From: Planctomycetes bacterium GWC2_45_44
GTDB lineage: Bacteria > Planctomycetota > Phycisphaerae > Sedimentisphaerales > UBA12454
DNA length: 33,634 bases
Reading direction: 5' to 3'
Assembly (NCBI GenBank): GCA_001824555.1
Contig: MHXU01000103.1
Span: 1 to 33,634, forward strand
Shown here: piece by piece, positions 15,074 to 33,541 of the stretch
Layout: each line of letters begins with the position of its first letter
Position numbering within the stretch: position 1 is the first letter of the stretch
The notes under the pieces: model-generated
The model's input: the letters and a program-made list of their open reading frames with translations, nothing else
Databases searched by the model: none
Told to the model about the DNA's origin: nothing
Made by a program: the position numbers and the translations under genes

Positions 15074-15349
15074 ATGTCAAGATCGCTTAAAAAAGGTCCG
15101 TTTGTCGAAGACAGTCTTCTGCAGAAAGTGCTTAAGCAGCGCCAGACGGGCGTAAAAGACCCGATTAAAACATGGTCAAGACGCAGTACAATAGTTCCGG
15201 AATTTGTGGGCTATACATTTATGGTTCACAACGGAAAAATGTTTCATAAAGTTTTCGTCAGTGAAGAAATGGTCGGCCACAAGCTGGGCGAGTTTTCTAT
15301 AACTCGCACATTTAGAGGCCATTCAGGCAATAAAGCGGCAGGGGCATAA
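15074..15349 (+). CDS. rpsS: 30S ribosomal protein S19
   Basis: S19 binds in the 30S head beside S13 and contributes to the A-site side of the intersubunit bridge. The 91-residue protein starts [15 protein letters not shown] and has [17 protein letters not shown] and the closing [12 protein letters not shown], all family hallmarks. GAGG lies upstream of the ATG. Its tail contains AGGGG, which serves as the ribosome binding site of rplV. Confidence 0.98.
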
Positions 15350-15352
15350 CAG

Positions 15353-15904
15353 ATGTTAAGTGCAAGCAAACTTGATAATCTTATCAAAAGTACAGGCAAA
15401 AGCGTCGCCGATTTGGCGACCGGGCTCAAAAGAGCCGGTCTAACCGAAAAGCAGGCGGCTTCTGCCATAAAAAATTGGCGCAAGGGTTTGATGAAACCTC
15501 TGCCCAGAAAAAGCGATATCGAAGCTCTCGCCTCGGGTCTTGGCGTTGATGTTGTCGGCGTTTCGCAGTGGAAGTCCTCGGTCAGATACTCGCCGAGTTC
15601 GCCAAGAAAAGCCAGACTTGTTACGCAGCTTATTTATGGTCGCGGCGCACAGGAGGCTCTTGACCTGCTCAAGTTCACTCACAAGCGAGCTTCCGACACC
15701 GTAAGCAAGGCTCTCAAGAGCGCAATCGCAAGCGCAGATGAAGATTCGGCCGATGTCGAAAATCTTTATGTCTGTCTGGCGAAGGTTGACGGCGCAGGCG
15801 TAAGGGTCGGCACAAAGAGATGGATTGCCAAAGACAGAGGCAGGGCGCATTCAATTAGAAAAATGGCCAGCCATATTCACGTGGCTGTAACAGAAATTGT
15901 ATAG
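15353..15904 (+). CDS. rplV: 50S ribosomal protein L22 with N-terminal helix-turn-helix-like extension
   Basis: L22 lines the nascent-peptide tunnel through a long beta-hairpin. The canonical L22 part is about residues 73-183 (VRYSPSSPRKARLV to the end), a normal 111 residues. Ahead of it lie about 72 extra residues that resemble an XRE/Cro-type helix-turn-helix: LTEKQAASAIKNWRKG, then P, then DIEALASGLGVDVVGV. The extended start is supported by AGGGG 8 bases before ATG 15353, by only 3 bases between rpsS and this ATG, and by the absence of a start codon near the L22 core. The fusion reads in one intact frame. Confidence 0.95.
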   Translation: MLSASKLDNLIKSTGKSVADLATGLKRAGLTEKQAASAIKNWRKGLMKPLPRKSDIEALASGLGVDVVGVSQWKSSVRYSPSSPRKARLVTQLIYGRGAQEALDLLKFTHKRASDTVSKALKSAIASADEDSADVENLYVCLAKVDGAGVRVGTKRWIAKDRGRAHSIRKMASHIHVAVTEIV

Positions 15905-29229: not shown

Positions 29230-30606
29230 CGTAATAGGCAAAAAGTCATCTTTCCGTAAAGTGAGCGATACACACACGTTATTGCTCAAATTGGCAGTGA
29301 CTTTCAACCGAAGAATTGAAAAAATGTGTGGCTGCAATGTTTTTAAAGTGCTCTTTTCAAAGTTCATAGTGAACTGAAGGCGGACCGGTACTGTCGGAGA
29401 CAGATTCATAATGATCGAAGTTTTCTGTTAAGCAGCTTTTCGATGATATGATTTCAATAGGCCGCCGAGTCGTTCGATGCAGAAGATATCGCCTGTATTG
29501 TTTCCGTATATCGGATCAATTATTCTTCCAAGCCCTTGATGTATCCGACCAGTATGGTAATAATCAAGAAACTTCGAGAGTACGTATCCAAGTTGCTCTT
29601 CAGAAGACAATATCAGGTGATTGAGGCATTCTTCTTTTACAGTTCTGACAAAGCGTTCAGCTACAGAATTCAAATTGGGGCTATGCGGTGGCAGTTTAAT
29701 ACATTCAATGCCTTCTGATTTCAGAATTGTACAGAACGTGGCCGTATACAAGGGGTCTCTGTCATGGATAAGATATTTCTTTCCCTTAAGGAAACCTTCT
29801 TCGCAATCGACCATATTTCGAGCTACTTGCTCCATCCAAATACCATCCGGGTTAGGTTTTATCCCCAGGATTTCGACCTTGCGAGTCGAAAGGTCAATCG
29901 CAAATAACACCATGCATCTGACAAGCCCTTTTATCGTGAGCAATTCAATTGAGAAGAAATCACATGCTGTTAAAATATGCCAATGGCTTTTGAGAAATTG
30001 TTTCCACGTGGATTTGGTATTTGGTTCGGGGTCATAGCCATTTGCGATCAGAATATTTCTTACAGTAGTTCTCGATACGTCAAAGCCAAGGTCTTGTAAA
30101 CAGTCACATATTTTCTGGCTACCCCATAGCATATTCTCAGTTTTGATTTTAAGTATCCAATAAACTGTTTGTTGCTCAATATGTGGCCTGCCGACTTTCT
30201 TCTGAATATTTGCACTGCCATCATACTTTTTGGCAATTAGCTTTCTGTACCAACCAAGCACAGTGGCAGGGGAGAAGAACAGGGATGTTTCTTCAAGGAG
30301 CTTTCTGGTCAACTCTTTTGCTTTTCTTGCTAATCGCATTCGTTGATTATCATTAAGCAAAATCCGTTTATCTTTTTCCTGCAGTTCTTTAAGTATGCGT
30401 ACCTGCTCTTTTAGATAGTCAATTGCCTTGTAAAGTTCTTTGTCAATGCAATATGCAAGGCATGTGATAATTGTAAGCCATAATTTTTGTTTCATAGTCT
30501 GAAAATTTTAACAATTCTGAATCTGTGCTTCAACTAATTTCGTATAGAATGGTTTTAACTCATTTTATGAAATATAGTTATGGAGTTATAATTTTTGCCT
30601 ATTACG
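29230..30606 (-). mobile_element. Complete insertion sequence with rve-type transposase
   Basis: CGTAATAGGCAAAAA at the left end (29230-29244) is inverted at the right end (30592-30606), giving about 1.38 kb. One transposase gene on the - strand fills most of it; 29245-29427 and 30496-30591 are non-coding. The family is not certain: transposase features resemble IS3/IS481-like rve elements, but the ends do not begin with the TG typical of those. I see no clear target-site duplication. Confidence 0.82.
29428..30495 (-). CDS. DDE integrase-core (rve) transposase
   Basis: The 355 residues have an N-terminal helical DNA-binding part (about 45-105, with SPATVLGWYRKL) and a second helix-turn-helix (about 108-155). 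The rve catalytic core follows: D179 (ACDFFSIE), D245 (IHDRDPLY) and E280 (NSVAERFVRTVKEE), about 34 residues after the second Asp. PPHSPNLNSVAERF is typical of integrase-core transposases. All acidic residues are present and the frame is intact, so it may be active. No second ORF or frameshift is needed. Confidence 0.88.
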   Translation of the reverse strand: MKQKLWLTIITCLAYCIDKELYKAIDYLKEQVRILKELQEKDKRILLNDNQRMRLARKAKELTRKLLEETSLFFSPATVLGWYRKLIAKKYDGSANIQKKVGRPHIEQQTVYWILKIKTENMLWGSQKICDCLQDLGFDVSRTTVRNILIANGYDPEPNTKSTWKQFLKSHWHILTACDFFSIELLTIKGLVRCMVLFAIDLSTRKVEILGIKPNPDGIWMEQVARNMVDCEEGFLKGKKYLIHDRDPLYTATFCTILKSEGIECIKLPPHSPNLNSVAERFVRTVKEECLNHLILSSEEQLGYVLSKFLDYYHTGRIHQGLGRIIDPIYGNNTGDIFCIERLGGLLKSYHRKAA

Positions 30607-30942
30607 GGAGAAGAGCAGGGATGTTTCTTCGAGGAGCTTTCTGGTCAGCTCTTTTGCTTTTCTTGCTAATCGCATTCGTTGATTATTATTAAGCAAAATC
30701 CGTTTATCTTTTTCCTGCAGTTCTTTAGGTATGCGTACCTGTTCTTTTAGATAGTCAATTGCCTTGTAAAGTTCTTTGTCAATGCAATATGCAAGGCATG
30801 TGATAATTGTAAGCCATAATTTTTGTTTCATAGCCTGAAAGTTCTAATAATTCTGAATCTGTGCTTCAACTAATTTCGTATAGAATGGTTTTAACTCATT
30901 TTATGAAATATAGTTATGGAGTTATAATTTTTGCCTATTACG
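30607..30942 (-). repeat. Tandem partial copy of the IS end
   Basis: The 336 bases repeat 30271-30606 with scattered substitutions, including the terminal inverted repeat at 30928-30942. They encode the first about 75 transposase residues (from ATG at 30829-30831) and then run out of homology exactly at the end of the full copy. This is the 5' fragment of a second IS or a tandem duplication; it is not a functional gene. Confidence 0.9.
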
Positions 30943-30962
30943 CCATATATTTTGCTCAATTC

Positions 30963-31580
30963 TTACAACTGTAGTATGCCACCACCAGACTGCTGGAAAA
31001 GTTTTTCCATTTCACGCTTAACAGTGGCAGGGTATTTTTTCAAATACTTCTGAAGCAGCTTTAAATTCAAGCGATGTAGATTACGAAACGTTACAATATC
31101 AGATGGGCAAATGCCACGCTTTCGGCACAAATAAACAAAATCACTTATGGCTTGTTCCGGTGAAGCGACGAGATTTTTCTGCGGATGTGAATAGGTCGAA
31201 TCGGTGATACATACAAAGACAATCTGCCCCAAGGTTGTACCACGTACTCTTGATCGATTATGCCTATGATTGGTAAAACACGTTATCTCTGTCGGTACTT
31301 GAGTAATTAACTGATGTCGGTAAAGAGCATACATTCCAGTAACATATGCAGCGGGATCAATAGAGGACACCAGATCCTCAATCATGACCGATTCCGCCAT
31401 ACCATATCGGCCTTTGGTATAACGCTGTATAATTCTGCGATTTACTAATCGCGAAAGTGACACTTTGAGAGATTTTGTATTCAGCGAGGAAATGTTAGAC
31501 AGCTCTGTTACTGTAAAAATAACTTTACGATATTTGTCACGTTGTTCTTGCAGCGTTTTCTGCCAATCAATTGCTTTCAT
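30963..31580 (-). CDS. AbiEi-like winged-helix protein (putative antitoxin/regulator)
   Basis: AbiEi proteins neutralise and autoregulate type IV toxin-antitoxin pairs that can act as abortive-infection phage defence. The 205 residues show an N-terminal winged-helix-like part (about 20-60: FTVTELSNISSLNTKSLKVSLSRLVNRRII..) followed by YVTGMYALYRHQLITQVPTEI, a pattern seen in AbiEi-type C-terminal domains. The ATG has GGAG 7 bases upstream and overlaps the end of the nucleotidyltransferase gene by 14 bases. The order toxin-first is unusual. The IS relic begins 20 bases after the stop. Confidence 0.75.
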   Translation of the reverse strand: MKAIDWQKTLQEQRDKYRKVIFTVTELSNISSLNTKSLKVSLSRLVNRRIIQRYTKGRYGMAESVMIEDLVSSIDPAAYVTGMYALYRHQLITQVPTEITCFTNHRHNRSRVRGTTLGQIVFVCITDSTYSHPQKNLVASPEQAISDFVYLCRKRGICPSDIVTFRNLHRLNLKLLQKYLKKYPATVKREMEKLFQQSGGGILQL

Positions 31581-32364
31581 TAGTATTCTCCATGCTAATA
31601 TATCGATTCAGTATGTTCATAACTGCATTGAGAACTATTATTCCACCACCAGTATCATTAAGTTGAGCGGCTGCTTCGGCATCAAGTTGTGTGTCGATAA
31701 CTTCCTGTATAGCCTTGGCATGGTAATCAGAATTTTTCCGGAGGTCGCACATTTTTTTTTCAAGATCCTTATTATTCATCCTTAACGCCTGCAACTTTGA
31801 TTTCAGTCTTTGAGCAGAATCAGAACGAAAGCGATCCTGAAAAAGAAATACATCTAAAATATCGCGATGTCTTAACATTATTCTGCCGAAAATGGCGATA
31901 ACTTTACTTTCGATCATGTCTGCTTCCGAAGCTGTCGCATATATAGTACCTCCTACCGTACGAACTTCAATTTGATCCGCACATCTAATGCACGTTACTT
32001 CAACAGGTATTTCTATGCGGCTATATGGCACATCATCTTTCCAGAAAGAAAGATCCACAATTTGCACAACTGGAGAATCGGCATCCGGACCAGTATGTGC
32101 ACTGATACTTCCGGAATAGCCGAGAAGCCTCGATACTTCCAAAAGCAAACCACGGTCAAAAGAATCTATAAGTTTTCTTTGTTTTTCCTTAAGGTCTCCG
32201 TCCCAGTGATAATCAATATCGTTTGAGATGCGTACGCTGGCATCTAGGAAGCGATACCTAAATCCACCGATGAGAGCCAGATTGCGTCCCACAGGGTGAG
32301 TTGCTACATACCGGGCAATGATCTTTTGGATGGCTTCTACTTTTTTCTGTTTATTAGCTATCAT
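31567..32364 (-). CDS. AbiEii/AbiGii-type nucleotidyltransferase (putative toxin)
   Basis: The 265 residues have the DNA-polymerase-beta-type nucleotidyltransferase signature: LIGGFRYRFLDASVRISNDID (GG at 33-34, DxD at 49-51), a later acidic segment RIEIPVEV (about 117-124), and ESKVIAIFGRI..RHRDILDVF (K154, R167, D168, D171) that matches the C-terminal AbiEii motif. AbiEii toxins use GTP or other NTPs to modify targets such as tRNA; the target here is unknown. AAGGA lies 7 bases before ATG 32364. A consensus promoter with a large inverted repeat is immediately upstream. Confidence 0.82.
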   Translation of the reverse strand: MIANKQKKVEAIQKIIARYVATHPVGRNLALIGGFRYRFLDASVRISNDIDYHWDGDLKEKQRKLIDSFDRGLLLEVSRLLGYSGSISAHTGPDADSPVVQIVDLSFWKDDVPYSRIEIPVEVTCIRCADQIEVRTVGGTIYATASEADMIESKVIAIFGRIMLRHRDILDVFLFQDRFRSDSAQRLKSKLQALRMNNKDLEKKMCDLRKNSDYHAKAIQEVIDTQLDAEAAAQLNDTGGGIIVLNAVMNILNRYISMENTNESN

Positions 32365-32403
32365 TGGCTATTCCTTAAAGCACTTTTCCTGTAACTAAAA
32401 GGT

Positions 32404-32455
32404 ATAATACCATATTAAGTAACAAATGTAAACATTATTGTTTATATTTGTTACT
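32404..32455 (-). promoter_or_regulatory. Promoter with overlapping operator for the AbiE-like pair
   Basis: On the - strand TTTACA (32427-32432) and TATTAT (32404-32409) are spaced by 17 bases. A 16-base-arm inverted repeat (32418-32433 and 32440-32455, spacer ATTATT, one non-identical base) covers the -35. AbiEi of known systems binds inverted repeats in its own promoter, so this is a natural operator candidate. Confidence 0.75.
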
Positions 32456-32754
32456 ATAAGGATGTTGGCCATAAGTGGCTCGGCGGATTGTTGAAATTCC
32501 GAGAAGAGCGGCATGATGGGTGGACGACTTTTTTACAAGGTACTACAGAATATTTTTTTAAAAAAGATATTGCGCTTTAAATTGAAGAGTGGTATAATTC
32601 CGGACAACTTGCTCACTGTCATTAAATTGTCATATATTTTGTGCACGTGATGCTCAATATGCTCAACATGCACATTTAAGTTAAATACCTATAAAGTAGA
32701 GATTTAGGGATAACTCGTTATTAAATAAGAAGTTGTAATTTTGCTTTATATTAA
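32456..32754. other. Non-coding right end of the island
   Basis: No gene with a start codon is visible. A frame without a start (to the stop at 32577-32579) could encode a short C-terminal relic containing WLGGLLKFREERHDGW, which I do not recognise. 32617-32630 repeats a 14-base segment near the left end. CTCAATATGCTCAACATGCA (32653-32672) is internally repetitive. These could be recombinase arm sites or debris. Confidence 0.4.
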
Positions 32755-32799
32755 GCTCATAACCCGGAGGTCGTAGGTTCGAATCCTGCCCCCGCTATT
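32755..32799. repeat. Attachment-site core, right copy
   Basis: Identical over 45 bases to the 3' end of tRNA-fMet (29038-29082). It lacks the 5' half of the tRNA, so it is not a functional gene. It marks the right junction of the inner island and the left junction of whatever carries the integrase fragment beyond it. Confidence 0.92.
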
Positions 32800-32807
32800 A
32801 GCTAAGT

Positions 32808-32853
32808 GCCTGTTGTTGCAAGAGTTGAAATCGAGCAATAGCAGGCTTTTTTT
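32808..32853 (+). terminator. Rho-independent terminator after the right core
   Basis: GCCTGTTGTTGC (32808-32819) pairs with GCAATAGCAGGC (32835-32846) using two G-U wobbles, followed by seven T (32847-32853). It would have terminated the tRNA transcript before the inner island was inserted. On the - strand no T-run follows the stem, so it is not a good terminator for the integrase fragment. Confidence 0.8.
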
Positions 32854-32864
32854 ATCTAATACCC

Positions 32865-33353
32865 CTACTGCAACAGATTTGCAACAGACATATCGGATAG
32901 AGCTTTGCTGCTTGCGGCTTTTGTCTTTTCAATCAGGTCATTTCTGACGGCGAGATAAAACTTCCTTGTTGTCTCAAAAGATGAATGACCAGCCATTGTC
33001 ATTACATCATATTCACTCAGACCGTTTCTAAACCAGTTGGTCAAACAGGTTCTTCTTAAGTCATGGAACTCGCCATCTTCAATACCCGCGTGCGACAAAA
33101 TCAGCTGGAATTGACGTCGGAAATTATTTGCAGGACACGATGCCTTACGCTGATTCCATTTGCCTTGTTTTCTTAGCTTTTGGATGTATTCATACCTTTG
33201 AGGCAAAACAAAAACATATGGAAAGCCTTCAGGCTGCTGGGCATGATGTTCGGTTAGCAGCTTAATGACTTCTTCGGTAAGAGGCAGACGCCTGCGTTCA
33301 TTGTCCTTGATTTCCCACTGCCATGTAAAGTTGCTATCTTTTTTGGGAGTAAC
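32865..33353 (-). pseudogene. 5'-truncated tyrosine integrase
   Basis: The C-terminal catalytic half of a phage/island integrase is present: FTWQWEIKDNERRRLPLT (beta-strand region), FHDLRRTCLTNW (box II, HxLRR) and AGHSSFETTRKFYLAV (His and the nucleophilic Tyr). The core-binding domain and the first catalytic Arg are missing. Homology ends at about 33353 where an IS66-type end begins; the apparent ATG at 33411-33413 belongs to the insertion. The protein should be inactive. It reads toward the adjacent core at 32755-32799, the usual place for an island integrase. Confidence 0.88.
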
Positions 33354-33541
33354 GTAACTTCCCGAGCAAATGCACCCCTGCAAAAAATTATGCGGCGAGG
33401 TCGTCTTCTGCAATTTTCGCCTTTTTTAGCGGTGGTTTCCAATTGCTCGGCAGCAACTCATCTATCCGGCTCTGTTCGCAGTGGCCGCAACAGCCGCATA
33501 AGTCAGTGGACTGAAAGGAAAATGGGGAAGATGGTTTTTTC
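33354..33541 (-). mobile_element. IS66-type right-end remnant (copy A)
   Basis: On the - strand a frame reads TDL, then RIDELLPSNWKPPLKKAK and a stop at 33388-33390, matching the C-terminus of IS66 transposase (RIDELLPWNWKP). The stop is followed by an end starting GTAACTTCCC on the + strand. Only about 160 bases remain; upstream coding is lost near 33520 where a second identical end follows. This copy interrupts the integrase. Confidence 0.8.

Follow-up and report, generated by a model that had tools for sequence, protein, structure and literature searches.

Why should uL22, a highly conserved protein of the ribosomal tunnel, begin with a stretch that resembles a transcription-factor domain? 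The question is raised by rplV (15353..15904, + strand), an ATG-started reading frame of 183 amino acids within the 33,634-nucleotide stretch of Planctomycetes DNA analyzed here (the window). The window holds a standard rpoBC-str-S10-spc-alpha cluster (gene names assigned by eye), in which rplV lies between rpsS and rpsC, and the genome contains one L22 gene. The frame encodes about 72 additional residues together with a complete, single-copy uL22, as confirmed here: residues 77–179 (15581..15889, + strand) form the uL22 core, which is recognized by PF00237 (1.3e-23, 83.6 bits against a cut-off of 28), by TIGR01044, i.e., rplV_bact (82.2 bits against a cut-off of 73.65), and through Foldseek matches to ribosomal L22 chains. 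Ahead of the core, residues 1–72 (15353..15568, + strand) represent an extension of about 72–76 amino acids, to which ordinary L22 has no counterpart. In its complete core, S10 operon setting and single copy, the protein resembles other bacterial uL22 (PF00237, TIGR01044), from which it differs by this extra 72-residue N-terminal domain, predicted to be folded.

Translation of the long reading frame

The preliminary description of this locus held that L22 is fused to an XRE-like helix-turn-helix (HTH) and translated as a single protein, citing a Shine-Dalgarno motif, a 3-base spacing from rpsS, and the lack of an internal start near the core. The spacing is as described, with rpsS ending at 15349 and a 3-nt gap before the rplV ATG at 15353. 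A Shine-Dalgarno-like AGGGG does occur 8 nt before this ATG, within the end of rpsS (15340..15344, + strand), although it is only modest in the window; in 28 of 32 diverse relatives, the same start is preceded by a clearer, purine-rich Shine-Dalgarno-like motif. Start-type codons within the window extension are limited to TTG21, TTG46, and ATG47, none of which is close to the core or conserved, and no conserved start codon near the core was found among the relatives compared.

A protein search of species genomes returned 27 loci. The gene is spanned by 26 of these, which share one start position (MLS or MLN) and are of near-equal length. The extension alignment is gap-free over the window and these 26 relatives, with 13 invariant columns. 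Extension and core share one frame at all 98 fetched loci with an extension (a set in which some genomes were fetched twice), usually separated by 0–3 residues, and the extension was never found without a core. Between close pairs, dN/dS is mostly 0.05–0.21 for the extension and 0.04–0.21 for the core, and overall pN/pS is 0.45 for the extension versus 0.24 for the core; this pattern points to purifying selection acting on an extension that evolves faster than the core.

Overall, the single-protein claim is supported by the shared frame and starts, the upstream motifs, and selection, and joint translation of the extension and L22 is nearly certain, judging from these sequence comparisons. The modest Shine-Dalgarno motif of the window, along with an AAGGG close upstream of its (non-conserved) ATG47, could be taken to mean that translation starts internally and that the frame ahead of it merely happens to lack stop codons, i.e., that the long form is an annotation artefact. 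This is extremely improbable given the start, length, and 13 invariant columns common to the 26 relatives, the purifying selection on the extension, the motif found upstream of this start in most relatives (28 of 32), and the lack of a conserved internal start, which together rule out a mis-called start. Start codon usage differs between lineages: GTG is used in 11 of 11 sampled extended L22 genes of family f5 (L170–L178, L210, and L211), versus ATG in the window's order and in family f9.

Predicted fold and recognition helix of the extension

Searched alone, the window sequence matched HTH_31 (0.017) and carph-isopro (NF046037; 7.5e-5), both under the curated cut-offs, with 22.8–23.5 bits for carph-isopro where 38 are required. 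Single family members matched HTH_31 (6.2e-7), HTH_3 (1e-6), and HTH_19 (4.4e-6) in Pfam, and a profile–profile comparison (hhalign) of the family with aligned true HTH_3 domains encoded in the same genome gave a probability of 94.8% (P 5e-8). AlphaFold2 predicted helices at residues 4–14, 18–25 (helix 2; 15404..15427, + strand), 32–43 (helix 3, the ‘recognition’ helix; 15446..15481, + strand), 53–63, and 67–70, the last one only in the model of the domain alone. The pLDDT was 80–90 in both the full-length protein and the isolated domain (87.6 for the latter). Foldseek matches to this model were almost exclusively proteins with Cro/C1-type domains, with XRE repressors on top and DdrO, ComR, SinR, and P22 c2 in the list, as well as Mbf1 from a yeast disome (TM 0.6–0.67, probability ~1.0, and E 0.035–0.2, such weak E values being expected at ~75 residues). 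Matches to TniQ and DISARM DrmE covered only part of the domain and were taken as a shared helical shape.

Because family profiles, profile–profile comparison, AlphaFold2, and Foldseek agree, the extension is predicted to be a Cro/C1 (XRE)-like HTH, an assignment that is firm from the family and not from the window sequence alone. The proposed fusion of L22 to an XRE-like domain is thus borne out by comparative, structural, and evolutionary evidence, including the structure prediction put forward earlier as a check. The domain shares the five-helix fold and core residues of known Cro/C1 domains (HTH_3, HTH_19, and HTH_31), but its helices 2 and 3 are joined by a longer turn, its base-reading position is variable, and it is fused to a ribosomal protein.

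These differences bear on whether the domain could read DNA. Repressors of the Cro/C1 fold read bases mainly via three positions of helix 3, as in the 434 and P22 c2 structures, and we take these to be columns 36, 37, and 41 of the extension alignment. The three are not conserved as a set: column 36 varies more than any other of the 76 columns, column 37 is mostly small, and column 41 is an invariant Asn, presumably placed where repressors are able to contact bases. Other kept residues are W42 (which forms an invariant pair with N41), K6, and R27, and position 40 is mostly basic. The helix 2–3 turn (residues 26–31) is longer than the short, tight turn usual in Cro/C1 domains, with bigger inserts of several residues in three members (L165, L177, and L215), one of which also has an insert after W42. 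On average the extension has a net charge of +4 to +5; most members are positive, and one is at −3. Given this extended turn and the high variability of the column that would chiefly read bases, a conserved DNA-reading role seems less likely than RNA or protein binding. Among the partners suggested in the preliminary description (rRNA, the mRNA of its own operon, or DNA), sequence-specific DNA reading is therefore the one that loses ground, and rRNA or another ribosomal surface would be favoured.

The same features weigh on autoregulation, in which surplus free L22 would use the HTH to bind its own S10-spc operon, at the DNA or mRNA level, and repress it. The predicted domain is of the repressor type, N41 is invariant, and several bacterial ribosomal proteins bind DNA (PMC10931766), but the lengthened and sometimes interrupted turn and the variability of the main base-reading position make this a possible but unlikely role. 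We likewise consider it unlikely that the L22-borne domain still recognizes nucleic acid in such a way that ribosomes or free L22 would tie translation to a DNA or mRNA site, through operon control or nucleoid tethering.

Distribution and origin of the extension

Within the class Phycisphaerae, a broad extension profile matched 89 of 298 genomes at E <= 1e-19, with the next match at 1.6e-4. The positive genomes included 60 from the window's order, 27 from family f5, and 2 from family f9. Every genome of the order having an L22 carries the extension (60 of 60), and the two order genomes without a match (G461 and G557, from the same genus and 91–96% complete) have no L22 match in their assemblies, probably because of an assembly gap. 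L22 proteins of families f6, f7, f8, and f105–f115 begin ~5 residues ahead of the core. Strong matches to the extension occurred only in L22 across the sampled genomes, and no match was detected outside the class among 392 genomes of the phylum. The domain thus appears limited to Phycisphaerae among the sampled genomes, all of which are from this phylum. The survey of L22 N-termini across Planctomycetota that had been suggested earlier therefore shows that the extension recurs in relatives, but in one class and not in the phylum as a whole.

A tree built from ten neighbouring ribosomal proteins separates the window's order from f5/f9, with plain-L22 families in between, and at least three changes are needed to explain the distribution. 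The L22 core tree agrees with this tree, and a single clade of extended cores is rejected, although the core is short (AU p 0.0017). Since the L22 cores mirror the species tree, movement of the fused gene in its entirety between the two branches is rejected at the same p value. At the level of the domain, an extension profile built from the window's order alone picked up the f5/f9 copies at 2e-6 to 1e-16, and nothing else in those genomes passed 0.01, which suggests that the extensions in the order and in f5/f9 descend from one ancestral domain. In the tree of extensions, f9 has no firm placement in either group. Two origins remain, either an old fusion followed by several losses or a transfer of the domain part alone, and these patterns raise the question of how a fusion can be gained or lost while the core tracks the species tree. 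No close free-standing source of the domain was found, with own-genome matches at 0.07–0.13 and phage matches at E >= 4. Separately, the L22 core of the window's order is 3 residues longer (105 versus 102) at the start of the tunnel hairpin (window ~15779-15826), where it reads VDGAGVRVGTKRW instead of VDEGPTIKRF elsewhere, in all 19 order members of the tree.

Possible roles on the ribosome

Ribosomal proteins often carry extra tails, and the fusion is an old, conserved, lineage-specific extension of a type already known as such. Chloroplast uL22c also has a lineage-specific extension, but at both ends and totalling 89 residues, while the lineage-specific extension of long L27 is a 9–15-residue leader removed by Prp. 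The L22/unknown domain fusion (PRK12279, NF008917) likewise combines L22 with an extra domain; however, the match spans positions 13–109 of the 311 in this model, so that its extra part is C-terminal and the present extension is unmatched. What is unusual here is a transcription-factor-type domain on a highly conserved tunnel protein, found order-wide and again in a distant family, and our searches of the open literature returned no description of such an L22–HTH fusion.

uL22 belongs to the proteins that surround the tunnel exit (PMC5071890), and ribosome binding is known for a Cro/C1 HTH, that of archaeal MBF1 and eukaryotic EDF1/Mbf1 (PMC7486125). By analogy, we lean towards a domain that is carried by the ribosome and docked on the 50S surface close to the tunnel exit, where it would hold rRNA or a neighbouring protein, or provide a docking surface. 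As the genome search revealed no other L22 gene, every ribosome would receive the fused L22. In the full-length model, the domain leads into the first strand of L22 with hardly any linker, and for this reason it would form a compact unit on the solvent-facing side of the 50S near the exit. A domain recruited from a repressor-type protein module may thus now grip the ribosome itself, through rRNA or a neighbouring protein, or form a docking surface as in MBF1/EDF1. We infer its presence in the mature ribosome, its position there, and its binding partner, the last by likeness to the known ribosome binding of MBF1/EDF1. Unlike the L22-borne domain, MBF1/EDF1 is a separate small-subunit factor with an MBF1 or zinc-ribbon domain, reported to be absent from bacteria, and a Pfam scan of the whole fused L22 returned L22 and a weak HTH only, with neither an MBF1 domain nor a zinc ribbon. 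The fusion may therefore stand beside the separate MBF1/EDF1 as a bacterial example of a Cro/C1 domain permanently built into a ribosomal protein.

Two further roles would make different use of the domain. It may serve as a landing platform near the tunnel exit, recruiting a lineage-specific partner, be it a factor for nascent chains or one from the membrane or nucleoid; the place of uL22 among the proteins around the exit (PMC5071890) and a conserved fold with a variable surface are consistent with this, but no partner gene was identified and we regard this role as improbable. Alternatively, it may aid L22 folding or assembly and then be removed, as Prp removes the long L27 leader. Processed ribosomal protein extensions are on record (PMC9405229) and the extension–core boundary is sharp; yet the short L27 leader contrasts with a folded domain here, and inspection of the junction by eye revealed no conserved protease-like motif, which makes removal quite improbable.

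For the docked domain that we prefer, no matching change elsewhere in the ribosome was seen, as neither 23S length nor L32 shows one: no 23S length change is common to the extended lineages and absent from plain ones, which argues against compensation for a lost 23S segment, and L32, whose replacement was also considered, is present in 16 of 16 genomes tested. An open-literature search returned neither a ribosome structure nor proteomics data for these bacteria, and cultured relatives should permit direct tests by proteomics and cryo-EM. Two of the 23S rRNA genes, L231 (G127) and L237 (G372), carry insertions of ~290 nt and ~310 nt near E. coli positions 1861–1890 and 541–570, respectively. 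Downstream of the ribosomal cluster, the window region 29428-33413 (− strand) holds a transposase-like reading frame and an integrase-like piece, together with an AbiEi/AbiEii-like pair (30963-31580 and 31567-32364), all recognized by eye from the translations.
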